Positions 20,476 to 42,298 of a stretch of DNA of 64,000 nt are shown here, piece by piece (positions within the stretch are counted from its first letter, which is position 1; every line of letters begins with the position of its first letter). The notes below the pieces were generated by a model. It had not been told where the DNA came from and searched no databases. It worked only from the letters and a program-made list of their open reading frames with translations. A program made the position numbers and the translations under genes. The DNA is from Cellvibrio sp. KY-YJ-3 (GTDB taxonomy: Bacteria; Pseudomonadota; Gammaproteobacteria; Pseudomonadales; Cellvibrionaceae), in NCBI RefSeq assembly GCF_008806955.1, contig NZ_CP031727.1:2122001-2186000 (forward strand), given 5' to 3'.

Positions 20476-22056
20476 ATGGATACCGCAACAACCATAGATG
20501 TTCTGGTGACCGGCTTGATTAAGCCTGCATTGTTATTATTGATAATTATGATGTTGTGGCTATTGGTGCGTAATAAATCGGCTGCCTTGCAGCATTTTGT
20601 GCTGAGTCTTGGTTTCCTTTGGATGCTCTTATTGCCGCTGCTCGCAAATATTGCACCGGTTATCCCGCTGAGCTTTGAATCAACACCGCTGATTACCCAA
20701 TGGATATCACATGAATACTTTGTATCAGTGGGTTCGTTGTTGGAGCAAGGGTTGACACAGGTGCAATGGTTAATTCTTCTCTCGCTGTATTTATTTCCCG
20801 CCAGCAGTTTATTGTTCTATTTATTGCTGGGAGTAATTGGTCTTTGGCAGCAACAAAAATCGGCACAAAAAATTATCGATCCCGAATTACTCGCACAAGC
20901 TGCCGTGTTGTGCGAATTAGTGGATGTGCAGCGCCCGGTTCAATTATTGACGTCGCCCGATGTGAAATCACCGTACACTTGGGGGCTTTTTCGCCCGGTT
21001 ATTGTATTGCCGCGCGCGGTGTTGTTGTGGGATGAAGACAAACGCGTGAGCGTGTTGATGCATGAGTTGGGGCATATCGCGCGTTGGGATTGGCTAATTA
21101 GTTTGTTGGTAAAAATTACCTGCGCTTTTTTTTGGTTTTTGTTGCCAATCTGGTGGGTGGCCCATCAACTATTCTTACAAGCTGAAATCGCGTGTGATGA
21201 TTACATCTATAAGTTGCGCGACAAGCATCTTAGCTATGCTAAAAATTTATTGGCGTTTGCGACATTAGAGGGAAATCATCCGGTCGATGATAGCGCAATG
21301 TATATGCGTGGCCATTCAGATATTCATCAGCGTATTTTGGCTGTGTTGGATAAGCAGCGGCCACATCATTCCATCGCTACTGAATCAGCGCAGTACTGGG
21401 TGCTTATTGGTGCATTGTTGCTAAGCATTTTTGCGAGTGTGCAGTGGATTCCCTTGCGCGCGCAAATGAATGCCTCAGTGGATGATGTATTGAAAATCCA
21501 GTGGGAAGATAATCAAGATGCATTGCTCCATAACACAGAAGTGCGCAGCGAAATATTCAGCTGGGCGTTAGTGCAATCATTAAAACCTGTATTGTCTGAT
21601 GCCCCATCGCCTCTGGAAATAATAGAACAGGTACATGTTGAGGCGGTTAAACCAGATAAAACCGAACTGACCCAACTCTCCGGTATTGAACTTGGTTCCC
21701 CTTCAGCCTTGCCCATCCCTCGCATTCAAGTCGAAGGTTTTTTGCCGGTAACGTTGGTTACACCCGTGTATCCCGCGCGCGCGCTGAGTAAGGGTATCGA
21801 GGGCTGGGTGGAGGTTGAATTTACGATTGATACCACCGGCCATATTATCAATCCGCGTATTATTAACCGTTCGCCCTCGCGTGTGTTTGACCGCAGTGTT
21901 TTAACTGCATTAAAAAAATCCCACTACCGTCCGCAAGTAATTGATGGGCAACCTATTGTTGTGCAAGGTGTAACAGAATTGTTCCGCTTTACGCTCTTGC
22001 ATGATGATTCAGCTACGGGTGCAAGGCCCGCTGATGTCGCCACACGACGACGATAA
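20476..22056 (+). CDS. M56 (BlaR1-like) membrane peptidase with C-terminal TonB domain
   Basis: The 526-residue protein has about four membrane helices in the first 230 residues, with the zinc-peptidase motif HELGH (His196, Glu197, His200) and the downstream ligand Glu237 in AEIACDDYIY. A further helix lies near 400. Instead of the penicillin-binding sensor of BlaR1, the C-terminus (about 430-515) is a TonB C-terminal domain (PVYPARALSKGIEGWVEVEF, SRVFDRSVLTALKKSHYRP). It probably senses something in the periplasm and cleaves the co-encoded repressor. TonB-dependent partners are not identified. Confidence 0.9.
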   Translation: MDTATTIDVLVTGLIKPALLLLIIMMLWLLVRNKSAALQHFVLSLGFLWMLLLPLLANIAPVIPLSFESTPLITQWISHEYFVSVGSLLEQGLTQVQWLILLSLYLFPASSLLFYLLLGVIGLWQQQKSAQKIIDPELLAQAAVLCELVDVQRPVQLLTSPDVKSPYTWGLFRPVIVLPRAVLLWDEDKRVSVLMHELGHIARWDWLISLLVKITCAFFWFLLPIWWVAHQLFLQAEIACDDYIYKLRDKHLSYAKNLLAFATLEGNHPVDDSAMYMRGHSDIHQRILAVLDKQRPHHSIATESAQYWVLIGALLLSIFASVQWIPLRAQMNASVDDVLKIQWEDNQDALLHNTEVRSEIFSWALVQSLKPVLSDAPSPLEIIEQVHVEAVKPDKTELTQLSGIELGSPSALPIPRIQVEGFLPVTLVTPVYPARALSKGIEGWVEVEFTIDTTGHIINPRIINRSPSRVFDRSVLTALKKSHYRPQVIDGQPIVVQGVTELFRFTLLHDDSATGARPADVATRRR

Positions 22057-22153: not shown

Positions 22154-22801
22154 ATGAACGCTATACCTATCCCCGTTTTAGTTGATGGTCATCTATTTAC
22201 CCATTCCCTAATAGCTCGTCTGTTGAGTATTTTTCCCGCCGCATTGTTGATGACTTTGTGCCTGCTATTTGCGATGTATTCGCTGGTGCATAACGATTAC
22301 CCATTGCAGCCTGCAAAACCAACACCGCCTATACCGACAGTTACCATGGAAGTTCCTGAAACCATTGAGACGATAAAACAAGAGCCGCCTGTGCGCCCGG
22401 TTGAGCAATTGCCACCGCCAGTCATTAATACGCAGGAGACCATCGAGGTTAAAGTAGACCCCGGTATGAATTTCGGCGAGCCACCGCTTGCAGCGAAACC
22501 ACCCATTGATGGTGTGTTTGGTTTTGCTGGGCAAATGGTACCCATTATCCGCATTGCGCCCCAGTATCCGCAGGCGGCAGTTGCGCGAGGCGTCGAAGGT
22601 TATGTGGATATTATGTTTGATGTGACTGCATTGGGGACTACCGAAAATATTCGAATTATCGCCGCCGTACCCTCCAGTGTGTTTAACCGCAGTGTGATCA
22701 AAGCGGTGAAAGGCTGGAAGTACAAACCTAATGTGGTGGATGGTGTTGCGGTAAAAACGCCAGATGTGAGAGATAGGGTTCGTTTCAACATGGAAAAATA
22801 A
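22154..22801 (+). CDS. TonB-family energy-transducing protein
   Basis: The 215-residue protein has one N-terminal membrane helix (about 22-45), a Pro/Glu-rich periplasmic spacer (residues 50-115) and a C-terminal TonB domain (APQYPQAAVARGVEGYVDIM, SSVFNRSVIKAVKGWKYKP). No exbB or exbD lies beside it. It ends the blaI-like/M56 operon, with a 97-base gap after the peptidase gene. The C-terminal domain closely parallels that of the preceding protein, which suggests duplication of the domain. Confidence 0.9.
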   Translation: MNAIPIPVLVDGHLFTHSLIARLLSIFPAALLMTLCLLFAMYSLVHNDYPLQPAKPTPPIPTVTMEVPETIETIKQEPPVRPVEQLPPPVINTQETIEVKVDPGMNFGEPPLAAKPPIDGVFGFAGQMVPIIRIAPQYPQAAVARGVEGYVDIMFDVTALGTTENIRIIAAVPSSVFNRSVIKAVKGWKYKPNVVDGVAVKTPDVRDRVRFNMEK

Positions 22802-22878: not shown

Positions 22879-23706
22879 ATGTCCAATCCTATTGCCCTGT
22901 TGTGTAATCACCCGGAATCCATGCTGCACGCTGAAACCCTGGCCATGCAGTGGTCTTTGCCTTTATTGCGTGAGCTTGAGGTGGAAACAATTAGCGATAT
23001 TGATTTTGTATTGGTGGTCGCGCCTCACGCCATTGAGTTGCAGCAAACCGGGCGTAAAGCACCGGGCCCGATTCGTGCGGAATTTACGGAAGGGGCAGTG
23101 GATCATCGGCGTAAATTTGGTGGCGGCAAGGGGCAGATGATAGCCAAAGCGGTCGGCATTAAAGCCGGTGTTTACCCATGGGTGTTGGATGCAACGGCGG
23201 GTTTGGGCAAAGACAGCTTTGTATTGGCAACACTGGGTAGCACAGTGACTATGATTGAGCGTTCGCCCATAGTGCACTGTTTGTTAAACGACGGTTTGCA
23301 GCGTGCACGCGATTATGCGCTGCAAGATCCGGAATTGTTTGCGGTGTTACAACGGATGCACTTGGTGCAGCAAGATAGCCGCGATTATTTGCAATCGCTA
23401 ACCGCAGGCAATTTTCCGGATGTAATTTATTTGGACCCTATGTTTCCCGAACGCCACAAGACGGCCGATGTTAAAAAAGACATGGCCGCGTTTCATTTGC
23501 TGGTGGGTAAAGATGAAGACGCCGATGCACTGTTGCCACTGGCGCTGGCACACGCCAATTATCGCGTGGTGGTGAAGCGGCCGCGCAAGGCGCCCTTATT
23601 AAATAATCAAGCGCCGTCTTATCAGCTGGAAGGAAAATCGAGTCGCTACGATATTTATACGTTAAAAAAATTACCGGAGCGACTCAATAATACGGGTGAT
23701 ATTTAG
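22879..23706 (+). CDS. rsmJ: 16S rRNA m2G1516 methyltransferase RsmJ
   Basis: The 275-residue SAM-dependent methyltransferase has the family segments APGPIRAEF, HRRKFGGGKGQ, LDATAGLGKDSFVLA (SAM-binding loop) and YLDPMFPER (catalytic motif). It modifies G1516 of 16S rRNA. ATG 22879 gives MSNPIALL; Mets at 22846 and 22819 are in frame but less likely. Its stop overlaps that of the convergent MFS transporter by four bases. Confidence 0.94.
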   Translation: MSNPIALLCNHPESMLHAETLAMQWSLPLLRELEVETISDIDFVLVVAPHAIELQQTGRKAPGPIRAEFTEGAVDHRRKFGGGKGQMIAKAVGIKAGVYPWVLDATAGLGKDSFVLATLGSTVTMIERSPIVHCLLNDGLQRARDYALQDPELFAVLQRMHLVQQDSRDYLQSLTAGNFPDVIYLDPMFPERHKTADVKKDMAAFHLLVGKDEDADALLPLALAHANYRVVVKRPRKAPLLNNQAPSYQLEGKSSRYDIYTLKKLPERLNNTGDI

Positions 23707-24935
23707 TGGCCGCCGTACTGGCTAATTTCCAATTGTGATAAATGTTTTTCCGCAGGGTTTTTGATCCAGTTGTAAATCATGGCAATACATAATAAACCCG
23801 CAAAACCGGTTGCCAAATAAAAGCCGTATTTCACGTGGCCAAATAAATCCCCCACGGCACCCATTAATAGTGGGCCAAGTGCAGCGGCCACGGCGGTGAA
23901 AAATAAAATAACACCGGCGACTGTGCCGTGTTCACTTTTATTGAAACAGCTGATGCCTTTTGAATTAAGTGTTGGGTAAATCATCGACATAAATAAACCC
24001 GAAAGCGGCAATAGAAAAACCGCATAGTTCACACCGCCCAACATGCTGCCTAGAAAGCATAAAAAAATGCAGCTGCTAAACAGTGCCATTACCGATGTCC
24101 AGTTGAATTTAGTCAGAATCCAGGCGCCCAGAAAGCGTCCGCCCGCGCGCAGCACAAAAAATATTGTCAGCGCATAGGTAGCAAACCACAGGGCGTTGCC
24201 GGAATAGTCTTTGAGGAAAGTTGGCATCCACACATAAATTGCAACTTCGGTGGCAACATACAGGGCAATTGCTCCCGAAAAGCCGGCGGCATAGGGGTTG
24301 CCAATCATTTTTATCGTGCGTTTAACATCAATTTTATCCTGTGCACTGGCGGGTTTATGCTTGGGATAATTTACCCGTGATGCGATGACAATCAGCAGCA
24401 AGCACACAAATCCGGCAAAAATATATAAATAAATCCACGAGACTTTTGCTGCTAGTAAATAGGCGACAATCGCTGGACCGATAATGGCACCGACACCAAA
24501 AAAGCCTTCCACCGTATTCATGGTGCGTGTGTGTTCGCGGCTGGAAGTAGAAATGTCGCCAATCAGTGCGAGTGCACCGGTTTTAAAAATGCCAATCGCA
24601 CAGCCGGAGATTAATAGCAGCCCGACAAAAAACTCAAAGTAACTGCCGAGCGCAAATAAAAAACAGGAAATGGCAAACAGCGCCAAGCCGATCAAAATCG
24701 TGTACTTGCGCCCGATGCGATCCGCTAAAAACCCAAAGGCGATACCGCTAAAGGCGATGGCAATCATCGGTGCGTAGTGAAACGCACTGGCCTGGGTGAG
24801 GTTGAGGTTAAATTCCTTGATGATTTCGGGAATGATCACACCCACCGCATCGGTGGTCATGGCAAACATGGTGAACATTAAAAACGTGAGCCAGCGGATA
24901 AGAACCAGATTGTGTTCTTGGTGTGCAGATGTCAT
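23703..24935 (-). CDS. MFS transporter, probable sugar permease
   Basis: The 410-residue protein shows twelve hydrophobic segments and the MFS loop motif GFLADRIGRKYT between helices 2 and 3. A cytoplasmic His-rich N-terminus (TSAHQEHN) and a short GGH end are present. It is read divergently from the ROK repressor, from a shared symmetric promoter region, so it most likely imports the sugar used by the GH32/GH68-like enzyme and the fructokinase. Sucrose or a short fructoside is my inference; the substrate is not fixed by the sequence. Confidence 0.88.
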   Translation of the reverse strand: MTSAHQEHNLVLIRWLTFLMFTMFAMTTDAVGVIIPEIIKEFNLNLTQASAFHYAPMIAIAFSGIAFGFLADRIGRKYTILIGLALFAISCFLFALGSYFEFFVGLLLISGCAIGIFKTGALALIGDISTSSREHTRTMNTVEGFFGVGAIIGPAIVAYLLAAKVSWIYLYIFAGFVCLLLIVIASRVNYPKHKPASAQDKIDVKRTIKMIGNPYAAGFSGAIALYVATEVAIYVWMPTFLKDYSGNALWFATYALTIFFVLRAGGRFLGAWILTKFNWTSVMALFSSCIFLCFLGSMLGGVNYAVFLLPLSGLFMSMIYPTLNSKGISCFNKSEHGTVAGVILFFTAVAAALGPLLMGAVGDLFGHVKYGFYLATGFAGLLCIAMIYNWIKNPAEKHLSQLEISQYGGH

Positions 24936-25135
24936 GGGGCAGCCCTGTGCAAAATAGATAATTTATTGTGAATTATTAGGCTCTGGTTGCGAGCAAATCA
25001 GGTATGTCTTGATTCCGGTCTGATTGATCCCTGTGTATCAATTCCAGTTGCATTTATCCCGTTTTATTAATCTCGGTTTATTAATGCTAGTACAGCATTT
25101 GAGTCTGGCACCCAAAAGCGTATGATTGGAAAAGT

Positions 25136-25175
25136 AGTTGACTTATTTATTCACAGTGGTTTAATTAAGTCAACT
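25136..25175. promoter_or_regulatory. Symmetric divergent promoter with embedded operator (MFS / ROK regulator)
   Basis: AGTTGACTTA (25136-25145) and TAAGTCAACT (25166-25175) form a perfect 10-bp inverted repeat 20 bases apart. Each arm supplies a TTGACT -35. On the + strand it pairs with TTAATT (25161-25166), on the - strand with ATAAAT (25150-25145), both at exactly 17 bases. The centre carries TCACAGTGGTTTAATTAA (25151-25168), shared with the fructokinase promoter. A protein bound here would block both promoters. Confidence 0.7.
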
Positions 25176-25229: not shown

Positions 25230-26447
25230 ATGAGTAAGGGTAGTAATTCGAGTGGTTTGCGCCGTTATAACGAACGGGTGTTGATCAGTTCATTGCGTAG
25301 CCTGGGCATGGCTTCCAAGTTTGAACTGGCGCGGCTCTCCAACCTTACCCCACAAGCGGTCACACGTATTATCGACGACCTGGAAGCGGCGGGGCTGGTG
25401 GCACAACGGGGCAAGTTACAGCGCGGTCTCGGCCAACCTTCCACCATGTACAGTATTGATCCCAAGGGGGCTTTTTCCATTGGGGTGAATGTGGGTCGCA
25501 ATGACATCCAAATATTGTTGATGGATTTTGGCGGCAATGTGATAAATAAAGTCGCACATGAATTTAGCCTGCCTAACCCAGACTTTCTGCTGGAAAAAGT
25601 AGAGCTGGCGATAACGCATTTACAGGGCTTGTTAGACCCCAGCGAACGCCCGCGTTTGGTGGGGGTTGGCTTGGCCATGCCCTGGTTTATGGGTGGTTGG
25701 CAGCAGGAATTAAATATGAGCGATGAACTGGCCGCGCGCTGGAATTCACTCAAGTTTGATCAGGAGCTGGCCAAGCGTATCAGCCTGCCGATTTTTATCG
25801 AAAACGATTGCTCCGCCGCCGCCATCGCCGAGTTGCAATTTGGTTTGGGCAATCAGGTTAAAAACTTTTTGTACATTTTTATCGGCACCTTTGTTGGTGG
25901 CGGGGTGGTATTGCAAGGCAATTTGGAAAGTGGTGTGCATGGCAACTCCGGGGCTTTGGCCTCTATGCCGGTGTCGCCCTCCACTCTGGATTCCTGCCCG
26001 CCGGTGAAAGGGCCGTTTGAAGTGTTGGCTAATCGCGCCTCTATTTATGTATTGCGCCGTCATCTCAAAGCACGCGGTTTTGCGATCAACAATATTTCGG
26101 AATTACCGCGCATATTGCCGCAGGCGCAAGTGGCGGTTGACGAGTGGATAGAAGATTGCGCCCAGGCACTGACCTTTGCGATTTTTTCTGCAACGGGGGT
26201 GCTGGATTTTGAAGCCATAGTGCTGGATGGCAATTTGCCCCGCGTGATTGTGTTGCAATTGGTGGAGCGTTTGCGCACCACCCTGGCTGAACTCACGCCA
26301 CCCGGTGTGTTTTTGCCGGATATTTTCTGCGGCATTATCGGTGTTGATGCGCGCGCGATTGGCGGTGCGATATTGCCGTTTTATGCCAATTTTTCACCGG
26401 ATACTACGGTGATGCTGACCAATCAGGGCAGTAACGATCAGCGCTGA
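25230..26447 (+). CDS. ROK-family transcriptional repressor
   Basis: The 405-residue protein has an N-terminal winged helix (VLISSLRSLGMASKFELARL, LTPQAVTRIIDDLEAAGLV) and a ROK sugar-kinase-like domain (SIGVNVGRNDIQILLMDFGG, IENDCSAAAIAELQFG, FIGTFVGGGVV). Members such as NagC or Mlc lose DNA binding when sugar or a partner binds. It sits at the start of the sugar cluster, with the enzyme gene 61 bases downstream, and is likely to regulate its own promoter and that of the kinase. Confidence 0.92.
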   Translation: MSKGSNSSGLRRYNERVLISSLRSLGMASKFELARLSNLTPQAVTRIIDDLEAAGLVAQRGKLQRGLGQPSTMYSIDPKGAFSIGVNVGRNDIQILLMDFGGNVINKVAHEFSLPNPDFLLEKVELAITHLQGLLDPSERPRLVGVGLAMPWFMGGWQQELNMSDELAARWNSLKFDQELAKRISLPIFIENDCSAAAIAELQFGLGNQVKNFLYIFIGTFVGGGVVLQGNLESGVHGNSGALASMPVSPSTLDSCPPVKGPFEVLANRASIYVLRRHLKARGFAINNISELPRILPQAQVAVDEWIEDCAQALTFAIFSATGVLDFEAIVLDGNLPRVIVLQLVERLRTTLAELTPPGVFLPDIFCGIIGVDARAIGGAILPFYANFSPDTTVMLTNQGSNDQR

Positions 26448-26508
26448 TATTTAGCCCTGTTCAGTAGTGCAACCTGATTTTTTTCAAGTTTGTTTGAGGG
26501 TTATATTC

Positions 26509-27477
26509 GTGTTGCAGCTGACTGATAAATGGGTATGGGATTTCTGGTTCGCCGTGGATGGCGAGGATTACCACATGTTTTATTTGCAGGCCGATAAGGC
26601 GCTGCAAAATCCGGATTTGCGCCACTGGAATGTGTCGGTCGGCCATGCGGTTTCTAAAAATTTGCGCGACTGGACACTGCTGCCAGATGCCATCGCACCC
26701 ACCCAAGGCGATGATAATGCGCCCGATTCTTTTACCACCTGGACTGGCTGCGTTATTAACGTCGGCGCTGAGTGGTACATGTATTACACCGGCACCAAGC
26801 GCGCAGAAAAAGGGTTGGTGCAGCGCGTATGTTTGGCTAAATCCCCCGATTTAATTCATTGGACCAAACACAATAGCAATCCGGTGGTGGAGCTGGATGA
26901 GCGTTGGTACGACGGTTTGAATTTGGATTATTGGCACGATGCGTCCTGGCGCGACCCCTGGGTGATGAAAGATCCACAAACGGATTTGTACCATATGCTG
27001 GTTACTTGCCGTGTTAATCGCGGTGAGCCGGATGGTCGCGGTGCGATTGGCTATGCTTCTTCCACCAACTTGCTCGACTGGGCAGTGGGCGATGCCTTTC
27101 TGGCACCGGGTTGGTTTGGTGAAATGGAAGTGCCGCAGATCGAAAAAATTGGCGACCGCTATTATTTATTCTGTTCGGTATCCACACGTTTCCACTCCGC
27201 AAAACACAAAGCCGAACCTGGTTGTGAACCGCAAACTGGCGTGAAATATTTTGTCGCCGACTCCATGATGGGGCCTTACGAATGCATGGGTAATGGCTTT
27301 TTGACCGGCCCCAAACAAGACGGCCTCTACTCTGGTCGTTTGATTAAAGGCCCGGATCAAGCCTGGTATTTGCTGGCCTTTATGGGCAACGATGCGCAGG
27401 GGCAATTTACGGGCAATATTATCGACCCTATCAAAGTTGTCGTTGCAGATGATGGTAGTTTGTCGCTGCTGGATTAA
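26509..27477 (+). CDS. GH32/GH68-like five-bladed propeller glycosidase, intracellular
   Basis: The 322-residue protein starts at GTG 26509 after a GAGG site; an upstream GTG at 26467 has no good signal. There is no signal peptide. Clan GH-J hallmarks are present: VWDFW with Asp11 as likely nucleophile, WRDPW (148-150) as transition-state stabiliser, and Glu207 in GEMEVPQIEK as probable acid/base. The VWDFW start is closer to the GH68 type than to the WMNDPN of invertases, and GH43 is a further alternative. With a fructokinase next door, beta-fructosidase activity on an imported sugar is the best guess. Confidence 0.8.
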   Translation: MLQLTDKWVWDFWFAVDGEDYHMFYLQADKALQNPDLRHWNVSVGHAVSKNLRDWTLLPDAIAPTQGDDNAPDSFTTWTGCVINVGAEWYMYYTGTKRAEKGLVQRVCLAKSPDLIHWTKHNSNPVVELDERWYDGLNLDYWHDASWRDPWVMKDPQTDLYHMLVTCRVNRGEPDGRGAIGYASSTNLLDWAVGDAFLAPGWFGEMEVPQIEKIGDRYYLFCSVSTRFHSAKHKAEPGCEPQTGVKYFVADSMMGPYECMGNGFLTGPKQDGLYSGRLIKGPDQAWYLLAFMGNDAQGQFTGNIIDPIKVVVADDGSLSLLD

Positions 27478-27617: not shown

Positions 27618-27649
27618 TTGCCAATACTAAATCACAGTGATTTAATTAA
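27618..27649 (+). promoter_or_regulatory. Fructokinase promoter with ROK-cluster operator
   Basis: TTGCCA (27618-27623), 17 bases, TTTAAT (27641-27646). TCACAGTGATTTAATTAA (27632-27649) matches the site in the MFS/ROK divergent promoter at 17 of 18 positions and overlaps the -10. AAATCAC-A-GTGATTT (27629-27643) is a perfect dyad. Confidence 0.7.
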
Positions 27650-27716: not shown

Positions 27717-28661
27717 ATGCAGCTTGAGTCTCCCCAAATCGATAAGCGTTTACTGGGTGCCATTGAAGCGGGTGGCACCAAATTTAATTGTGCCGTGGCG
27801 GATATGCAGGGCAAGGTGCTGGCGCAAGCGGCATTTCCCACGACAACCCCGGCAGAAACACTGGCTCTAGCGCGCAATTTTTTCAGTGGTGCTTTGCGTG
27901 AGCACGATAGCTCACTGGCAGCGATGGGCATTGCCAGTTTTGGCCCGGTGGAATTGGATCGCGGTGCGCCTAATTATGGTTTTATCACCAAAACGCCCAA
28001 AGCCGGTTGGTCAAATACCGATATTTGCGGTTATTTCCGCACAGCCTTTAATGTGCCCGTTGCTTTTGAAACCGATGTTAATGGTGCGGCTTGGGGTGAG
28101 TTGGTCGCTGGTGCTGCACGTGATTGCAGCCATTTTATTTATGTCACTGTTGGTACCGGTATAGGTGCCGGCATAGTAGTGAATGGCAAATTGTTGCAGG
28201 GCGTCACCCATCCGGAAGTCGGGCACATGCTGATGCCGCGCGCTTCGCTGCAGGACGACTACCAGGGTTGCTGCCCGTTTCACAAAGGCTGTTTGGAAGG
28301 TTTGGCATCTGGCACCGCCATCAATAAACGCTGGGGTATTAACGGCAAAGACCTACCCGACGACCACGCTGCCTGGGACTATGAAGCCCATTATTTGGCG
28401 ACTATGTGCGTGAATTTAACCCAGTGTTTTGCACCGCAAAAAATTATTTTAGGCGGTGGGGTGATGGATAAAAAATTACTCTTTCCGCTGGTGCGTAGTA
28501 AGTTTCTGGAATTAATTAATGGCTACGCGCCGGAATCGATTTTAACGCGGGTGGATCAATACATAGTGCCTACTGGCCTTGATGGTAAAGCGGGAATTGT
28601 GGGGGCGATTGATTTGGCGTTAATGGAGTTAGGCACTGCACAAGTGCCGCACTCGTTTTAG
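27717..28661 (+). CDS. ROK-family fructokinase
   Basis: The 314-residue protein has the ATP-binding start GAIEAGGTKFNCAV, the zinc-binding stretch GHMLMPR followed by DYQGCCPFHKGCLEGLASG (one His, three Cys), and a catalytic Asp in FETDVNGAAWGE. This matches YdhR/ScrK-type ROK fructokinases more than glucokinases. It would phosphorylate fructose in the cytoplasm. It has its own promoter sharing the cluster motif and its own terminator. Glucose or mannose kinase activity cannot be excluded. Confidence 0.9.
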   Translation: MQLESPQIDKRLLGAIEAGGTKFNCAVADMQGKVLAQAAFPTTTPAETLALARNFFSGALREHDSSLAAMGIASFGPVELDRGAPNYGFITKTPKAGWSNTDICGYFRTAFNVPVAFETDVNGAAWGELVAGAARDCSHFIYVTVGTGIGAGIVVNGKLLQGVTHPEVGHMLMPRASLQDDYQGCCPFHKGCLEGLASGTAINKRWGINGKDLPDDHAAWDYEAHYLATMCVNLTQCFAPQKIILGGGVMDKKLLFPLVRSKFLELINGYAPESILTRVDQYIVPTGLDGKAGIVGAIDLALMELGTAQVPHSF

Positions 28662-30964: not shown

Positions 30965-31145
30965 TGCCCGCTTGACCCAAATTGCGTATGCGTTGGCAGC
31001 TTTATTGCAACGGTTGGATGTAGCCTGCTGAAATTCTCCGGGGACGGGAGAAACGGACATCAGGGAGGAGACTTCGGCGGGCGCTATAACAATGCTAAAA
31101 GCGCATACTCTAGAGAGCGAGGCCGCGATGTTAAAGGAAGTCACT

Positions 31146-32600
31146 ATGAGTGAAATGAAAATAGATTGGCAGAATTATCACTCTGGCCATTTCTATGATG
31201 AACTGATTCGCGCGCCCGGCCAAGCCCGTCCGGAAACCCGTCACCTCGCCCAGTATCTCGCCTCGCTCAGTGGTGCAGAATTACAAGAGCGAAAGTTGTC
31301 GGCCGAACTCGCTATTAAAACCATGGGCATTTCATTTACCGTTTACAGCGATGCTGGCAACATCGACCGCGAATGGCCCTTTGATATTATTCCGCGCATT
31401 ATTCCGCAACGTGAATGGCAAAAAACCGAACGCGGATTAATCCAGCGTTTAACCGCGTTAAATTTATTTATTAATGACATCTACAACGATCAAAAAATTA
31501 TTAAAGATCGTGTTGTGCCCGCTTACCTCTTTGAAGATTCGGTCAATTTCCGCAAAGAATGTATCGGCATGAAACCCGCCTATGGCGTGTGGTCGCATAT
31601 TTGCGGCAGCGATTTAATTCGCGACGACAAAGGTGAATTTTTTGTGCTGGAAGATAACTTGCGTGTCCCTTCCGGCGTGTCCTACATGCTGGAAAACCGC
31701 AAGGTGACCAAACGAGTATTTCCGGAGCTGTTTGAAAATCACAATATTGTGCCGGTTACCGAATATCCCAATCAATTATTTGACACACTTGCATCGCTTT
31801 CACCGCGTCAATCCGAGCGCCCGGAAATTGTGGTGCTTACGCCCGGTATTTATAACTCCGCTTATTTTGAACATTCTTATCTCGCCCAACAAATGGGTGT
31901 GGAATTGGTGGAAGGCAGTGATTTAGTGGTAGATAGCGATGACTGCGTTTATATGCGCAGCATCGATGGTTTAAAACGCGTGGATGTCATTTACCGCCGT
32001 ATCGACGATTTATTTTTGGACCCGGACATGTTCAACCCGGATTCAGTACTCGGTGTGCGCGGTTTAATGCGCGCTTGGTTAAAAGGTAATGTTGCACTTG
32101 CCAATGCACCCGGCGCCGGTGTGGCAGATGACAAAGTCATCTACACCTTTGTACCGGACATGATCAAATATTATTTAGGCGAGGAGCCCATTCTGCCGAA
32201 CGTGCCCAGCTATTTGTGTGTGGATAAAAAGCAGTGCGATTATGTGCTCACTAACCTCGATAAATTAGTCGTGAAACCCGCGAACGAATCGGGCGGCTAC
32301 GGCATGATTATCGGCCCGCAAGCGAGCAAAAAAGAACTCGCTGAATTTGCTGAACGTATTAAAGCCAATCCGCGCAACTACATGGCGCAGCCCTTAATTT
32401 CATTATCAACTGCACCGATTCTTACCAATGGCAATGCCGAGGCGCGCCATATTGATTTGCGCCCCTTTGTCTTGCAGGGGCGCGAGCATCATGTAACGCC
32501 GGGCGGTTTAACCCGAGTGGCGATGCGCAAAGGTTCCTATGTGGTGAATTCATCGCAAGGTGGCGGTAGTAAAGATACCTGGATTGTGGTGGAGGACTAA
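31146..32600 (+). CDS. Circularly permuted type 2 ATP-grasp protein
   Basis: The 484-residue protein starts at ATG 31146 after AAGGAAG; ATGs at 31128 and 31092 are in frame. It carries the family segments LNLFINDIYNDQKI, LEDNLRVPSGVSYMLENRKV, LTPGIYNSAYFEHSYLAQQMG and the glycine-rich nucleotide loop VVKPANESGGYGMIIG. ATP-grasp enzymes of this type are predicted to join amino acids or peptides by an acyl phosphate. The next gene (alpha-E) starts 3 bases later. The pair normally travels with a transglutaminase-like gene and Anbu, here found 8-18 kb away. Confidence 0.93.
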   Translation: MSEMKIDWQNYHSGHFYDELIRAPGQARPETRHLAQYLASLSGAELQERKLSAELAIKTMGISFTVYSDAGNIDREWPFDIIPRIIPQREWQKTERGLIQRLTALNLFINDIYNDQKIIKDRVVPAYLFEDSVNFRKECIGMKPAYGVWSHICGSDLIRDDKGEFFVLEDNLRVPSGVSYMLENRKVTKRVFPELFENHNIVPVTEYPNQLFDTLASLSPRQSERPEIVVLTPGIYNSAYFEHSYLAQQMGVELVEGSDLVVDSDDCVYMRSIDGLKRVDVIYRRIDDLFLDPDMFNPDSVLGVRGLMRAWLKGNVALANAPGAGVADDKVIYTFVPDMIKYYLGEEPILPNVPSYLCVDKKQCDYVLTNLDKLVVKPANESGGYGMIIGPQASKKELAEFAERIKANPRNYMAQPLISLSTAPILTNGNAEARHIDLRPFVLQGREHHVTPGGLTRVAMRKGSYVVNSSQGGGSKDTWIVVED

Positions 32601-32603
32601 ACC

Positions 32604-33587
32604 ATGTTGTCTCGTGTTGCGGAACGTATTTATTGGTTGGGTCGTTACATGGAGCGCAGTGAAAATATTGCGCGGCTGGTCAATGTTAACTCGAATTTAT
32701 TATTGGATTTACCCTCTGGTGTGCGCGTGGGCTGGGGGTCATTAATTGATATCAGCGGTACTGGCAGTTATTTTGAACGCGGCGATACCCAGCTTGCGGA
32801 TGAAAAAACGGTGGTGAATTTTATTTTGGCGGACAAAAAAAATCCCGCCTCATTAATTAATTCCCTCAGCTTTGCCCGCGAGAATGCACGTATCACGCGC
32901 GAAACAATGCCCATGGAAGCCTGGGAGTTAATCAATGATTTGTATCACTACATTCGCGAGCGTGCTGACAAAGTCACTTCGCGTCGTGATCGCAGCACAA
33001 TTCTGCTGCATGTAATCAGCAGTGTGCAGCAATTTACGGGTTTGCTCTCTGGCTGCATGAGTCACAACAACGCCTACGATTTAATTCGCATTGGCCGCAA
33101 CCTTGAGCGCGCCGATATGACCACGCGCATTGTGGATGCCGGCTTGGTGAATTTATTGCCGCACTTATCCATTGGCGGCACCGAAGTCCTGGAGCCTTAC
33201 GACAATATTTTATGGATGAGTGTATTGCGTTCACTCAGCGCTTATCAAATGTATCGCCAGCAAGTGCGCGACCGGGTGAACGCCAACGCAGTGGTTAAAT
33301 TTTTATTGCAAAACGAGGATTTCCCCCGCGCCGTCGCTCACTGCCTAAAACAATTGGAACAGTGTTTGTGGGCGCTGCCCAACAGTGAAAAAGTGTTGGC
33401 CTCTATTGTGAGTATTCAACACAAATTGGATGAAGCTGATTTGGACGAGCTACTGCAATCCGGCTTGCACGAATACATCGACGAGCTGCAATTAGCCATT
33501 GGCAATTTGCATTTCAGTATCGCCGAAACCTGGTTCTTGCCGGTAGTAGTTGCGCAGTCGCAATCACAAGAGCAAAAATCCGCGTGA
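32604..33587 (+). CDS. Alpha-E domain protein
   Basis: The 327-residue, mostly helical protein starts MLSRVAERIYWLGRYMERSE, the hallmark of the alpha-E domain, with repeats of the pattern in LIRIGRNLERADMTTRIVD. It has no known catalytic motif and probably partners the ATP-grasp protein, with which it is translationally close. The C-terminus ends in a Gln/Ser tail (AQSQSQEQKSA). A strong terminator follows at 33660. Confidence 0.92.
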   Translation: MLSRVAERIYWLGRYMERSENIARLVNVNSNLLLDLPSGVRVGWGSLIDISGTGSYFERGDTQLADEKTVVNFILADKKNPASLINSLSFARENARITRETMPMEAWELINDLYHYIRERADKVTSRRDRSTILLHVISSVQQFTGLLSGCMSHNNAYDLIRIGRNLERADMTTRIVDAGLVNLLPHLSIGGTEVLEPYDNILWMSVLRSLSAYQMYRQQVRDRVNANAVVKFLLQNEDFPRAVAHCLKQLEQCLWALPNSEKVLASIVSIQHKLDEADLDELLQSGLHEYIDELQLAIGNLHFSIAETWFLPVVVAQSQSQEQKSA

Positions 33588-34107: not shown

Positions 34108-37100
34108 ATGAAGACAAAATCAATGCTGATGCTCTTGTCATCGGCGGGCTTATGGGTGGGGGCCAATGCCCATGCCTATAATTGCGCGCCCTTGCCTCAG
34201 TATGCACCAGGCACTTATAGCGCGGGTGCGCTGGTTAAAAATATCAATAAAGCATTTCGCTGCGACGTAGCGGGTTGGTGCAGTGTTGGTGGCCCCTATG
34301 AGCCGGGTGTGGGTTGGGCGGCCAGTAATGCCTGGACGGATCTAGGTGCGTGTGATGCAAACAATAATTCCAGCAGTATTGCATCCAGTGTCGCACTTTC
34401 CAGCATCGCACCATCCAGTGCAGCGCCATCGAGTATTGCCTCCAGTGTTGCGCTATCTAGTGTAGCTTTATCAAGTATTGCTTTATCAAGTGTCGCGCCT
34501 TCAAGCGTGGCTTCCTCCGTAAATTCCAGCACTCAGGGCGGCACTTGCCCCGGTATTAATATCTACCCCAATTGGACGCAAAAAGATTGGGCGGGTAATC
34601 CATCCCACGCGGCAGGTGGCGATCAAATGCAATACCAAGGCAAGGCCTACCGCGCCAATTGGTGGACACAAAGTATTCCCGGTAGCGATGGCTCCTGGAC
34701 ATTTGTCAGCAACTGCAGCGGCGGTGTGAGCAGTACAAGTTCATCCAGTGTGGTTTCTGTCAGCAGCAGCAGTGCAAGCTCTGCGAGTGTAATTTCACTC
34801 AGTAGTTCTTCAAAAAGTTCATCTTCCAGCTCTTCATCCAGTTCAGTCATTGTTGCTTCCTCTTCTTCTGTATCGGTGAGCAGCAGTAGTGTGAGTGTCG
34901 TGATTAGTGGTTATTATCCGACGCGTGTGAATCCGGTAAGCCTGAAAGTGAAAGGCTGGCCAAGTGATTTGGCGATGGGTTCTTTCACTGATAACAACGC
35001 TGCAGCAAACGATGCCTTGGCTGCGTCAGGTGTGGATTCTATTTTCGCTAACGAAGGCAATGGCACCGGCGATCGCGGTCAGGTCATTACGCCCGCTGTT
35101 ACTACACAAACCATTTTGCAGGCCCGCAATATTGAAAATGTCAGTGGGCGTTCGGTATTGCCGGTGATTGGTGTGGCGACTGCCGACGCAACCGGTATTG
35201 GCGCAGAGGATATTTTAAATAACGCCAATCTGGTCAAACATTTCCAAAATCTGATTCGTATTGCCGCTACTGTGCAAGCCAATAAAGATTCAACTCACGC
35301 GAATCCTGGTGCGTTGGTGCTGAACGCTGGCTTGTTGGCGCAATGGCAAACTAATCAAAATGGCAGCTTTAAAACTGCATTTGGTAGTGCAGGCAATTGG
35401 GTTGCGATTGATGTTAAACAAGCGGTGAAAGATGCGTTAACTAACGAAGCAAATTATGCGCTTGGCAGCCAATCACTGTCGGCTATTTACAATCTGAATA
35501 GTTTGAAAACCGAAGTGGACAGTGCATTGCAAAACAACATCACCGGTTGGGTACAGGCGCATAACTTATTGATCAAACGTTTAAGTCCGGATGTATCTTT
35601 CGGTTGGGTTGCTAGCGTATCCAGCCCAGGCAATAACACCTGGGTGCACACGGATTTTGATGGCTTGCAAGATGTGTGGGATGCCGCTGCATTTTCAGTA
35701 TCTACCTTTGCAAATGCAATTGGTGCTTATACGACGAATAATTATCGCCCTGACTTTTTAGCCTTTGATAAATCCGCTGATGATGGCTTATCGCCCTCTG
35801 CGCGTGCGGCTTATGCCTATGGCGCAAAAGAGTGGGAAAATTATTTGAACTATGTGCGTCAAGTAACCGATTCGTTATCGATTCCTGCAATGTTATGGCA
35901 AATTTCCGGCGGCCACTTGGCGAGCGTAAGTGAATCAATTGGCAGCTACAACTTAGCCAATGATTCGGGTACCGCTGGTACTTATTTTATGGGCGATAAA
36001 AGTATTGGCCGCAATATTAGTAATGTGCGCAGCGAAGTATTAAATATTCCGCTCAATGCTTCTGTGTATGCCGGTGCGATTAATGTAAATGCACTGTTAC
36101 AGCAAACTCCTGACTATGATTGGGGAACTTCTGGTTTGCGTCGTGCTGCATTTAGCAATGTGTTTGCAATTCTTTGGGGAAGCAAACAAGGTACTGCTGT
36201 TGTTCCAACCGCAACCAGTGCAACGGATAACGGCTGGTTGAAAAATAAAATTGCAGCCAACAAAGCCGCTGGTGGTATGCCTCTGTATGGTTCAGGCCAA
36301 TTAACAACGGCGAGTGCAATCACCTCAATTCCGCAATTGAATAGTGAATTGCTCAGCGTTGAAAATGCGATGAACAATCAGGCATTCCTTTACACAACAC
36401 CATCCAACGGTAAGGAGCCATCCAGCATCTATAAATGGGCGGATTTCTTGATGGCGCTCAATGCCATGCACAACGTTGGTGTGGGTCCAACCAAGTACTG
36501 GTTGCTTGATCCAACCAAAGACGACGCAACCAACATCAAGTACGCCAAAGTGGCGATTGCAGCGTTCCTCTCGCAAAGTATGAAAGAAACGATTCAGTAT
36601 GATGCCTGCGATGAAAACAACTGGTCGATCAACACCGGCGATCCTGTTAATTATCCAATCTCGGCGTCTTGCGGTCAGTTGCAACAGGATTATGCATCCT
36701 ACGGCCAGGATCCAATTACCGGTCGCGACAACCCATACTCCTGCCCGCGCAATCCTAAAATGGAAGTCACCGCCAACACCAACGCCAAGTGGTACGGTGC
36801 GCCGGGGCCTTTGTTTGCAGCACCCGACAGAGTGTTAGAGAAAAAAGGTTTGTTGGTTAACGGCAGTGTTGGCTACTGGGATTACGGTGCCTGGTTCCCG
36901 GCAGTAACCACGGTTGATAAATCAGCACAGGCTTACCTGCGTGAAGACGGTAAAGTTTACGATGGTCAAAAAGCCGGTAAATTTGTCTGGAACGGTAGTG
37001 CAGGTAAAAGTGTAGAAGGTTGTGGCTGGTGGGGGCGCGGTGTAATTCAAACCACCGGTCGCTTGAACTTTGGTAAGTTGAATCACTTCCTCGGCCGCAG

Positions 37101-37503
37101 TCATGTTGATCCCGCGTATGCCGGTCAAGTGGTGGATGGCATTGAAGTAACCCCAGCGCCGACTGAACCTTTGTATGCCGATATGGATCTCTGTTCAAAT
37201 CCACAATTGATTTGTTCATCGACAGAACACGGTGAGATCAAGTGGATTGCCGGTTTGTTCTTCTGGATGAATGAAGTGCAAGGCTACAACGATCCTGCGT
37301 ACAACTGGAATTACCATGCACAATTGCAAGCCTATGTGGATGGCGGCTTGAAAGGCGATGCGTTTATCAATGCAATCTCCGGCATTGTTAATCGCGGTTG
37401 TCCTGAATCTACTTGCCCGATTAGCGGTGCAGTGGATGGATTGGCCGATAGAAAAGCAAACTTTGTTAAAGTGTTGCAAATTATGGGTTTGAATCCGCAG
37501 TAA
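34108..37503 (+). CDS. Secreted multidomain GH19-type chitinase with an unassigned central domain
   Basis: The 1131-residue protein has a signal peptide ending at AHA-YN, and a GAGGGG ribosome site precedes ATG 34108. Parts in order: a small Cys/Trp-rich module (24-83), a pentapeptide-repeat Ser/Ala linker (88-140), a CBM5/12-like chitin-binding module (146-203, WTFVSNC end), a second Ser linker (205-266), an unassigned region of about 460 residues (268-730), and a C-terminal GH19-like domain (about 735-1131). In the last, SQSMKET places Glu826 as likely general acid, and WWGRGVIQTTGRLNFG matches the family's YGRG-IQ motif. It probably degrades chitin outside the cell, though the GH19 part is divergent. 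Confidence 0.82.
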   Translation: MKTKSMLMLLSSAGLWVGANAHAYNCAPLPQYAPGTYSAGALVKNINKAFRCDVAGWCSVGGPYEPGVGWAASNAWTDLGACDANNNSSSIASSVALSSIAPSSAAPSSIASSVALSSVALSSIALSSVAPSSVASSVNSSTQGGTCPGINIYPNWTQKDWAGNPSHAAGGDQMQYQGKAYRANWWTQSIPGSDGSWTFVSNCSGGVSSTSSSSVVSVSSSSASSASVISLSSSSKSSSSSSSSSSVIVASSSSVSVSSSSVSVVISGYYPTRVNPVSLKVKGWPSDLAMGSFTDNNAAANDALAASGVDSIFANEGNGTGDRGQVITPAVTTQTILQARNIENVSGRSVLPVIGVATADATGIGAEDILNNANLVKHFQNLIRIAATVQANKDSTHANPGALVLNAGLLAQWQTNQNGSFKTAFGSAGNWVAIDVKQAVKDALTNEANYALGSQSLSAIYNLNSLKTEVDSALQNNITGWVQAHNLLIKRLSPDVSFGWVASVSSPGNNTWVHTDFDGLQDVWDAAAFSVSTFANAIGAYTTNNYRPDFLAFDKSADDGLSPSARAAYAYGAKEWENYLNYVRQVTDSLSIPAMLWQISGGHLASVSESIGSYNLANDSGTAGTYFMGDKSIGRNISNVRSEVLNIPLNASVYAGAINVNALLQQTPDYDWGTSGLRRAAFSNVFAILWGSKQGTAVVPTATSATDNGWLKNKIAANKAAGGMPLYGSGQLTTASAITSIPQLNSELLSVENAMNNQAFLYTTPSNGKEPSSIYKWADFLMALNAMHNVGVGPTKYWLLDPTKDDATNIKYAKVAIAAFLSQSMKETIQYDACDENNWSINTGDPVNYPISASCGQLQQDYASYGQDPITGRDNPYSCPRNPKMEVTANTNAKWYGAPGPLFAAPDRVLEKKGLLVNGSVGYWDYGAWFPAVTTVDKSAQAYLREDGKVYDGQKAGKFVWNGSAGKSVEGCGWWGRGVIQTTGRLNFGKLNHFLGRSHVDPAYAGQVVDGIEVTPAPTEPLYADMDLCSNPQLICSSTEHGEIKWIAGLFFWMNEVQGYNDPAYNWNYHAQLQAYVDGGLKGDAFINAISGIVNRGCPESTCPISGAVDGLADRKANFVKVLQIMGLNPQ
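34373..34527 (+). repeat. Pentapeptide-coding linker repeat
   Basis: About ten units of SS-[VI]-A-[LPS] (for example SSVALSSVALSSIALSSVAP) encoded in tandem with silent variation. An extended flexible linker between the two small N-terminal modules. Confidence 0.85.
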
Positions 37504-40024: not shown

Positions 40025-40867
40025 TTACTCGACACTTTCGAGCCTCTGAAAAAACGCCTCTTCGTATTTAACGGGAGATAACCCGCCGTTATGAGAGTGG
40101 CGTTTGACCGGATTGTAGAACATCTCAATAAAATTAAATATTTCTGTTTTGGCTTCTTCCCTTGTGCTGTAAATCTTTCTGCGGGTTACGCGCTTCTTAA
40201 ATGTCGAAAAAAAGCTTTCCGCAACTGCGTTGTCATGACAATTTCCTCGGCGACTCATGGATGGAATGAAATTGTTAGCGTCCATAAAGGCCGTATAATC
40301 GTGACTCCCATATTGACTGCCTTGATCACTATGAATGAGTACGGTATCTCTTGGCTGACGCCGTAGCTTTGCCATGAGCAGTGCATCAATTACCAAGTGG
40401 CGATCAATATTCTTTCCCATAGACCAACCAACTATGCGCCGAGAAAATAAATCCAGTACCGTTGCCACGTACAAAAAGCCTTCGTAAGTTCGCACGTAAG
40501 TAATGTCACTAACCCACGAAACATTGGGCGCTTCAGGGTTAAAATTCCGGTTCAACAAATTGGCTGCAATCTTGGCGGTTTTGCTTCCTTTGATGTAGCG
40601 TCGCTTATAGCCAATCTGCGCTTTTATCCGGTGTTTACGCATGATTTTAGCTACGCGATGCACACTGCATGTCTCGCCCGCTTCACGCAAATCTTTGTGT
40701 ATCCACGGACTCCCGTAAGTGCCGCCACTCGCCAGGTAATGCTCTTTAATTAATATCAATAACCGCTGATCTTCCTGCTCGCGTTTTGATACCGGATTTT
40801 TTAGCCAAGCGTAGTAGCCACTGGGGTGAAGCTTTAAAACATGACACATCAAACGTACTGAATGCAT
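40025..40867 (-). CDS. IS3-family transposase OrfB (DDE integrase)
   Basis: The 280-residue protein has the HTH_21-like region (ASGGTYGSPWIHKDLREAG) and an rve integrase core. The catalytic acids are in SWVSDITYV, LIHSDQGSQYGS and DNAVAESFFSTFK, so the D-D-(35)-E triad is complete. It is normally made as an OrfAB fusion by -1 frameshifting. The frame is open upstream of its ATG back to the slippery site, as expected. It appears intact. Confidence 0.95.
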   Translation of the reverse strand: MHSVRLMCHVLKLHPSGYYAWLKNPVSKREQEDQRLLILIKEHYLASGGTYGSPWIHKDLREAGETCSVHRVAKIMRKHRIKAQIGYKRRYIKGSKTAKIAANLLNRNFNPEAPNVSWVSDITYVRTYEGFLYVATVLDLFSRRIVGWSMGKNIDRHLVIDALLMAKLRRQPRDTVLIHSDQGSQYGSHDYTAFMDANNFIPSMSRRGNCHDNAVAESFFSTFKKRVTRRKIYSTREEAKTEIFNFIEMFYNPVKRHSHNGGLSPVKYEEAFFQRLESVE

Positions 40868-41368: not shown

Positions 41369-42286
41369 TTAGCTTTGGCTTTGGCTTTGCGTTTGAAAAA
41401 AATCTTCTTCGATTCTTCTTACATCTACCGAGACAAATAATTGCGGTGAAACGCCGCCGCCAAAAATAACGCCTTTGAGTGGGGTTACATCGGAATAGTC
41501 GCGGCCCCAGGCGGTGGTGATGTGTTGTTCGCCGGTGACTTTGTTGTTGGTGGGGTCAAATTCGTACCAGCCTTCGCCGGGTGAATAAACGGCGAACCAG
41601 GCGTGGGTGGCGTCAGCGCCGATTAATTTTTCCTGGCCGGGGGCGGGTAGGGTTTCTAAATAGCCGCTGACGTAACGCGCAGGGTAGCCGAGTGAGCGCA
41701 GGCAGCCGATGGCGAGGTGGGCGAAATCCTGACAGACGCCGCGTTTGTGTTTGAGCACATCGGCGAGTGGTGTGGCGACGTCGGAAAATTCCGGGTCATA
41801 AACGAAATCGGTAAATATGCGTTGGGTTAAATCCATCACCGCCGATAAAAACGGGCGGTCGTCGCTGAAGGAGGCGGCGGCATAATCGGCAAGATCCTGA
41901 TGCTGTTGCACCATGGGGGAGTCGAGCATAAATTCGCGCGCGCAGAGTGTTTCCCAATCTTTACTGTGCTGCAGCAAATATTTTACGTAGCTGCAGGGGT
42001 TGCCAAAATCCAGGTTGATACTGGTGCTGCTGTCCTTAATGGTGATTTCGCTGGTGATACTGACATCCAATTCGCTGTGCGCTTTTTCAATCGAAAATTG
42101 TAAAAACTGATTGCCAAAATAATCGCTGCGGCTATTGCTGGTGGTGGCCGGTGGTGAGAGTTTTATATCGATAGTGTCTACGCGCTGGCGATCAGTGGAG
42201 CGCGGTAAAACATAGGCCAGGTTGTAGCAATGGCTCACCGGTAATGCGTAGGCATAGCGAGTGGTATGGCGAATGCGATATTTCAT
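41369..42286 (-). CDS. Transglutaminase-like protein (short form)
   Basis: The 305-residue protein has the bacterial transglutaminase N-terminal beta domain (MKYRIRHTTRYAYALPV, 1-80) and a catalytic core with Cys185 in GVCQDFAH, His228 in ATHAWFAVY and Asp244 in EFDPTNN. There is no signal peptide, so it acts in the cytoplasm, as cysteine peptidase or amide-transferring enzyme. The ATP-grasp/alpha-E fusion gene lies 12 bases upstream. The C-terminus is a QTQSQSQS tail. Confidence 0.93.
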   Translation of the reverse strand: MKYRIRHTTRYAYALPVSHCYNLAYVLPRSTDRQRVDTIDIKLSPPATTSNSRSDYFGNQFLQFSIEKAHSELDVSITSEITIKDSSTSINLDFGNPCSYVKYLLQHSKDWETLCAREFMLDSPMVQQHQDLADYAAASFSDDRPFLSAVMDLTQRIFTDFVYDPEFSDVATPLADVLKHKRGVCQDFAHLAIGCLRSLGYPARYVSGYLETLPAPGQEKLIGADATHAWFAVYSPGEGWYEFDPTNNKVTGEQHITTAWGRDYSDVTPLKGVIFGGGVSPQLFVSVDVRRIEEDFFQTQSQSQS

Positions 42287-42298
42287 AATCCCGGCTTC

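Follow-up and report, generated by a model that had tools for sequence, protein, structure and literature searches.

Gene content of the locus

The window analysed here is the whole 64,000-nucleotide stretch of the genome of Cellvibrio sp. KY-YJ-3 (contig NZ_CP031727.1, positions 2,122,001 to 2,186,000, forward strand), and coordinates refer to it unless a genome position is given. Within it, a gene for an MFS transporter and a gene for a ROK-family transcriptional regulator are transcribed away from each other, and the latter is followed by genes for a glycoside hydrolase and a fructokinase:

23703–24935, − strand: MFS transporter gene (Pfam MFS_1, E 7e-49), syntenic in seven Cellvibrio genomes
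25230–26447, + strand: ROK-family transcriptional regulator gene (Pfam ROK, E 8e-24)
26467–27477, + strand: glycoside hydrolase gene of the GH32/GH43 clan (Pfam Glyco_hydro_32N, E 6e-18), with a true start probably near 26510; its orthologues adjoin the ROK gene
27717–28661, + strand: ROK-family fructokinase gene, ScrK-like (NCBIfam FrctkaseScrK, E 1e-84; its 284 bits fall short of the curated cut-off, 400)

The regulator comprises a ROK domain and an N-terminal winged-helix part, like solved ROK regulators; it matches the solved ROK protein 7rhe_A over its full length (E 7e-97) and Mlc from residue 14. Against the NagC and Mlc models it scores 66–70 bits, far below the equivalog cut-offs. The zinc motif CxCGxxGC, which is typical of Mlc, is absent from this protein and from the 12 relatives checked, and scores and motif together place the regulator outside the Mlc/NagC subgroup. 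The region corresponding to the missing motif reads GVHGNSGALASMPVSPSTLDSCPPVKG; therefore, the effector pocket may differ from that of Mlc-type ROK proteins.

Elsewhere in the window, 20476–22056 encodes a fusion of a BlaR1-type M56 peptidase with a TonB C-terminal domain, and another TonB C-terminal protein follows at 22154–22801. There are two copies of a circularly permuted ATP-grasp/Alpha-E gene set (31092–33587 and 41369–44857), with separate genes in one copy and fused in the other, beside a transglutaminase-like gene. In a protein of 1131 residues (34108–37503), Pfam matches only a small carbohydrate-binding domain, CBM_5_12_2, close to the N-terminus, and a transposase-like gene at 40025–40867 is of the IS3 type judging from its domains, an rve integrase core and HTH_21.

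A conserved inverted repeat between the divergent genes

The sequence between the MFS transporter and ROK regulator genes contains the following element, which reads AGTTGACTTATTTATTCACAGTGGTTTAATTAAGTCAACT:

25136–25175, no strand: predicted composite operator and divergent promoter element, an inverted repeat with a conserved block at 25138–25173

As a preliminary description of this DNA had stated, the ends of the element, AGTTGACTTA (25136–25145) and TAAGTCAACT (25166–25175), form a perfect 10-bp inverted repeat, with a gap of 20 bases, and TTGACT is found within the arms in both directions. The description "perfectly symmetric" is correct for these arms but not for the 40-mer, which pairs at 14 of 20 positions; 40-mers as symmetric as this one arose in 38 of 2000 dinucleotide shuffles of the 294-bp region, and 19 of the 2000 contained a perfect 10-bp repeat whose loop was no longer than 40 bases. 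By itself, the inverted repeat is moderately unlikely by chance, which is suggestive, not decisive. In a genome-wide pattern search, TTGACTTA-N14..26-TAAGTCAA was found once in 4.49 Mb.

Close orthologues of the ROK regulator (69–100% identity) are present in 7 of 21 Cellvibrio genomes, each time accompanied by the divergent MFS gene. All seven genomes contain TTGACTTAWTTATTCACAGTGGTTTAATTAAGTCAA, in which 35 of the 36 positions are invariant and one varies. Mean identity is 99% in this 36-bp block, versus 49% and 41% in the 60 flanking bases; the alignment was crude and left end gaps free, and shuffled sequence is expected to give about 35%, with broad scatter. Among the 21 Cellvibrio genomes, the element is absent from those without a close ROK orthologue, including three which have only a homologue of 45–47% identity. 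Sister genomes are not independent of one another; the conservation of the block is the strong evidence that the element is real. A chance origin of the repeat, which the 19 shuffles would on their own permit, is refuted by the nearly complete conservation of the block across seven genomes whose flanks have diverged, and can be given almost no weight.

The predicted operator core and regulon

The centre of the element is palindromic, and a related palindrome lies in a second site upstream of the fructokinase gene:

25147–25163, no strand: predicted ROK operator core, TTATTCACAGTGGTTTA, of the palindrome type TAAATCACAGTGATTTA
27618–27646, + strand: predicted second, one-way composite site, TTGCCA-17-TTTAAT, with the operator core at 27628–27644

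The core at 25147–25163 is a variant of TAAATCACAGTGATTTA, which occupies 27628–27644. This match bears out the earlier claim that the centre holds a motif found across the cluster. A third likely operator lies at genome position 4368603, upstream of a gene for a TonB-dependent receptor, where TTGATT-16-TTTAAT reads toward the receptor. A wider regulon in the source genome, sought among sites with up to three mismatches, was rejected (25 matches, on a par with the 20 for a control pattern, most of them inside genes); of these sites, only those at 25147, 27628 and genome position 4368603 fit the promoter rule, i.e., a TTG element ahead of a TTTAAT arm.

The same core precedes fructokinase genes in Cellvibrio relatives, and in one Cellvibrio genome (G017) it is also upstream of a TonB receptor and a GH13 enzyme. 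A one-mismatch site in another genome (G015) was rejected, as it is inside a protein-coding gene. In a second genus, the core is upstream of a TonB receptor, which lies just before the kinase, and of a sodium-solute symporter; a weaker form precedes the fructokinase in two further genera. More distant ROK homologues, of Paraburkholderia and Caballeronia (41–42%), have a palindrome resembling TAAATCA..TGATTTA directly upstream. Taking into consideration this recurrence before the sugar genes of the regulon, and its absence where there is no close ROK orthologue, the ROK regulator very likely has its operator at the palindromic centre; the comparison thus supports the repressor site that had been proposed there.

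The operator sites are found at ScrK-like kinases, with GH32-family enzymes adjacent. The gene content of the regulon (ScrK-like kinase, GH32-related enzymes, TonB receptor) points, by protein family, to the use of sucrose or fructose. Mannose had been considered as the sugar of the cluster, and was dropped after the GH32 and ScrK-like matches.

The outer arms and the direction of transcription

Each arm of the inverted repeat contains a hexamer which would serve as the −35 element of a promoter reading across the operator:

25138–25143, + strand: predicted −35 (TTGACT) toward the ROK gene, invariant in seven genomes
25168–25173, − strand: predicted −35 (TTGACT) toward the MFS transporter gene, invariant in seven genomes

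The one-way sites of the regulon offer a comparison. When 17 of these, from about six independent groups, were set in the direction of the gene served, with their TTTAAT/TTTACT arms in register, a TTG began exactly 23 bases upstream of the arm in 15 (a 17-base spacer after TTGNNN), at the place equivalent to the TTG of 25138–25143; at every other offset TTG occurred at most once. The two remaining sites, which belong to two genomes of a single genus, carry TTTACT at this position. A mirrored CAA was found in none of the 17, and the only site of the regulon with TTGACT on both sides is the two-way Cellvibrio site. Thus, the TTG arm tracks the direction of transcription rather than the symmetry of the repressor, and the role of the outer arms is probably that of −35 elements, not of additional half-sites for the repressor. 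Comparison therefore favours the original assignment of the arms as −35 elements in both directions.

Assignment of the two predicted promoters

The corresponding −10 elements would overlap the operator, and a further promoter candidate lies just upstream of it:

25160–25165, + strand: predicted −10 of the ROK promoter (TTTAAT with TGG before it) at a spacing of 16 bases from the −35, with transcription expected to begin at about 25172
25145–25151, − strand: predicted −10 region of the transporter promoter, read either as AATAAA at spacing 16 or as TGA-ATAAAT at spacing 17, with transcription expected to begin at about 25138–25139
25099–25126, + strand: candidate second ROK promoter from a consensus scan, TTGAGT-16-TATGAT, scoring well only in the source genome and its nearest relative

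Promoters were scored with approximate E. coli sigma-70 weights, on a crude scale where shuffled regions average 9.9 and the 95th percentile is 12.4. TTGACT-16-TGG-TTTAAT (25138–25165) scores 12.9 and ranks first on the + strand in each of the seven orthologous intergenic regions. The −10 elements chosen previously were TTAATT (25161–25166, + strand) and ATAAAT (25150–25145, − strand). Both are indeed 17 bases from the TTGACT hexamers but are poor, each matching the −10 consensus at three of six positions, whereas TTTAAT matches at five of six and has TGG before it, as in an extended −10. On the ROK side, TTAATT (score 8.4 at 17 bases) is best replaced by TTTAAT, which is one base nearer, scores far higher and fits the regulon rule.

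The − strand promoter within the element scores 8.5 as TTGACT-17-TGA-ATAAAT and 7.5 with AATAAA at spacing 16, rising to 11.3 in the two genomes which have AATAAT; AATAAA, or AATAAT in those two, is the − strand choice that matches the ROK side. This promoter ranks first in five of the seven intergenic regions and second in the other two. With its mediocre −10, the transporter promoter is the less certain of the two. Two TTGACT hexamers and their −10 candidates lie within 36 conserved bp, as expected of overlapping divergent promoters, the transporter-side −10 being weak. The predicted starts are within one base of those first proposed; they point away from each other, so that the promoters would be divergent and overlapping, not "face-to-face".

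A TAnnAT hexamer (TATGAT at 25121–25126) has been kept 8–12 bases upstream of the repeat in all seven genomes, in surroundings that vary. It may be the −10 of a second ROK promoter, or part of the transporter leader; in the source species and its nearest relative, TTGAGT-16-TATGAT could be such a promoter. A search of the intergenic region by eye for CRP or sigma-54 sites gave nothing convincing.

A probable shared operator in overlapping promoters

The sequence, its conservation, its co-occurrence with the regulon and the fixed spacing between −35 and operator are direct observations, and they are best accommodated if the 36-bp block is a single ROK operator embedded in two overlapping divergent promoters of the sigma-70 type, subjecting both genes to shared repression, which we consider likely. 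The operator core would lie within the spacer of both promoters: its right arm (TTTAAT with TGG) would supply the ROK promoter with an extended −10, the left arm would overlap the weaker −10 of the transporter promoter, and each flanking TTGACT would be the −35 of the promoter that reads across the operator. ROK binding, the start sites, repression and the inducer are inferred. Without inducer, a ROK dimer bound at the core would mask the spacer and the −10 element of each promoter and so block both, and the ROK protein would repress its own gene and the transporter gene together. A sugar signal arising from sucrose or fructose uptake would release the protein, and this release would also free the fructokinase and TonB-receptor promoters, which appear to be built on the same operator. 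Polymerase would be seated in one orientation at a time, the exclusion probably being a by-product of compactness.

The symmetry of the outer arms could be read differently: TTGACTTA and TAAGTCAA might be further repressor contacts, in an operator of 36–40 bp with half-sites about three helical turns apart, with the promoters elsewhere. The centre of symmetry of the arms nearly coincides with that of the core, and arms and core are equally invariant. However, a symmetric contact should show on both sides, whereas the one-way sites lack a mirrored arm and have TTG only upstream relative to the gene served, a fixed 17 bases from TTTAAT, and we consider such contacts unlikely. Separate promoters would also be required if the block were an operator only, downstream of them, with the repressor acting as a roadblock. 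Suitable candidates score about 10–10.6, namely TTGAGT-16-TATGAT (25099–25126) for the ROK gene and TAGAGA-17-TATCAT (25211–25183) for the transporter, and the TAnnAT upstream of the repeat is common to all seven genomes. Yet the nearest relative is the only other genome to keep the −35 of the ROK candidate, the transporter candidate occurs only in the source genome, and the invariant TTGACT arms would be left unexplained; a roadblock is improbable.

The preliminary description saw in the element a compact switch whose exclusion is built in. The 40 bp of 25136–25175 are too short for two polymerases, which by this geometry would exclude each other; a single repressor, however, would silence both genes together. 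A true toggle, in which the two promoters compete and transcription of one gene keeps the other off, would draw on this geometric bar to two polymerases at once, and competition has been seen at E. coli acrA/acrR on strong activation of one side (PMC12825309). Against it, the five E. coli bidirectional promoters tested had basal transcription too low for polymerase competition, which was seen only under strong activation (PMC12825309). In addition, the Cellvibrio locus yielded no activator site, and a shared operator predicts co-repression and co-induction. We accord the toggle little probability.

Comparison with known systems

A shared operator in overlapping promoters is a familiar kind of control element. 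In E. coli bioO (bound by BirA) and in Tn10 tetA/tetR, a palindromic operator lies inside overlapping divergent promoters, and one repressor silences both; the repressor families are unrelated to that of the Cellvibrio site, and the operator sequences differ. The ROK repressors Mlc, NagC and XylR use AT-rich palindromic operators, a feature common to the Cellvibrio site, and share with its regulator the ROK fold with an N-terminal DNA-binding part and a regulon of sugar genes, whereas the operator centre (CACAGTG) and the regulon content (fructokinase, GH32-like enzyme, TonB receptor) set the Cellvibrio site apart.

The bidirectional promoters of the E. coli acrA/acrR type (PMC12825309; PMC10268837) are similar in having divergent repressor and transport genes with overlapping elements, in binding polymerase in only one orientation at a time, and in a repressor which acts on both genes (predicted, in Cellvibrio). 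Bidirectional promoters share a −10, and by definition their opposite-strand starts are 7–25 bp apart, usually 18 bp (PMC12825309; PMC10268837). The Cellvibrio site falls outside this 7–25 bp definition: the starts predicted from hexamer positions are 33–35 bp apart, and each −10 is near the −35 of the other promoter, with the operator between.

Implications

The regulon is predicted to belong to a ROK regulator that controls sucrose or fructose use. A literature search gave no description of such a regulator and found nothing directly relevant on a ROK regulator of sucrose genes or on sucrose regulation in Cellvibrio. More tentatively, and less probably than not, the ROK operator could be a direction-neutral cassette of operator plus −10, with direction set only by the side on which the TTG −35 lies. 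The TTTAAT arms would then be usable as an extended −10 on either strand, and selection would maintain both directions at the two-way Cellvibrio site, where competing polymerases would adjust how much repressor is made relative to transporter. The 36-bp element would combine a repressor site with two opposed promoters, and has natural one-way relatives on the same operator as controls. This set of two-way and one-way sites is suited to asking how the direction of a promoter is encoded.
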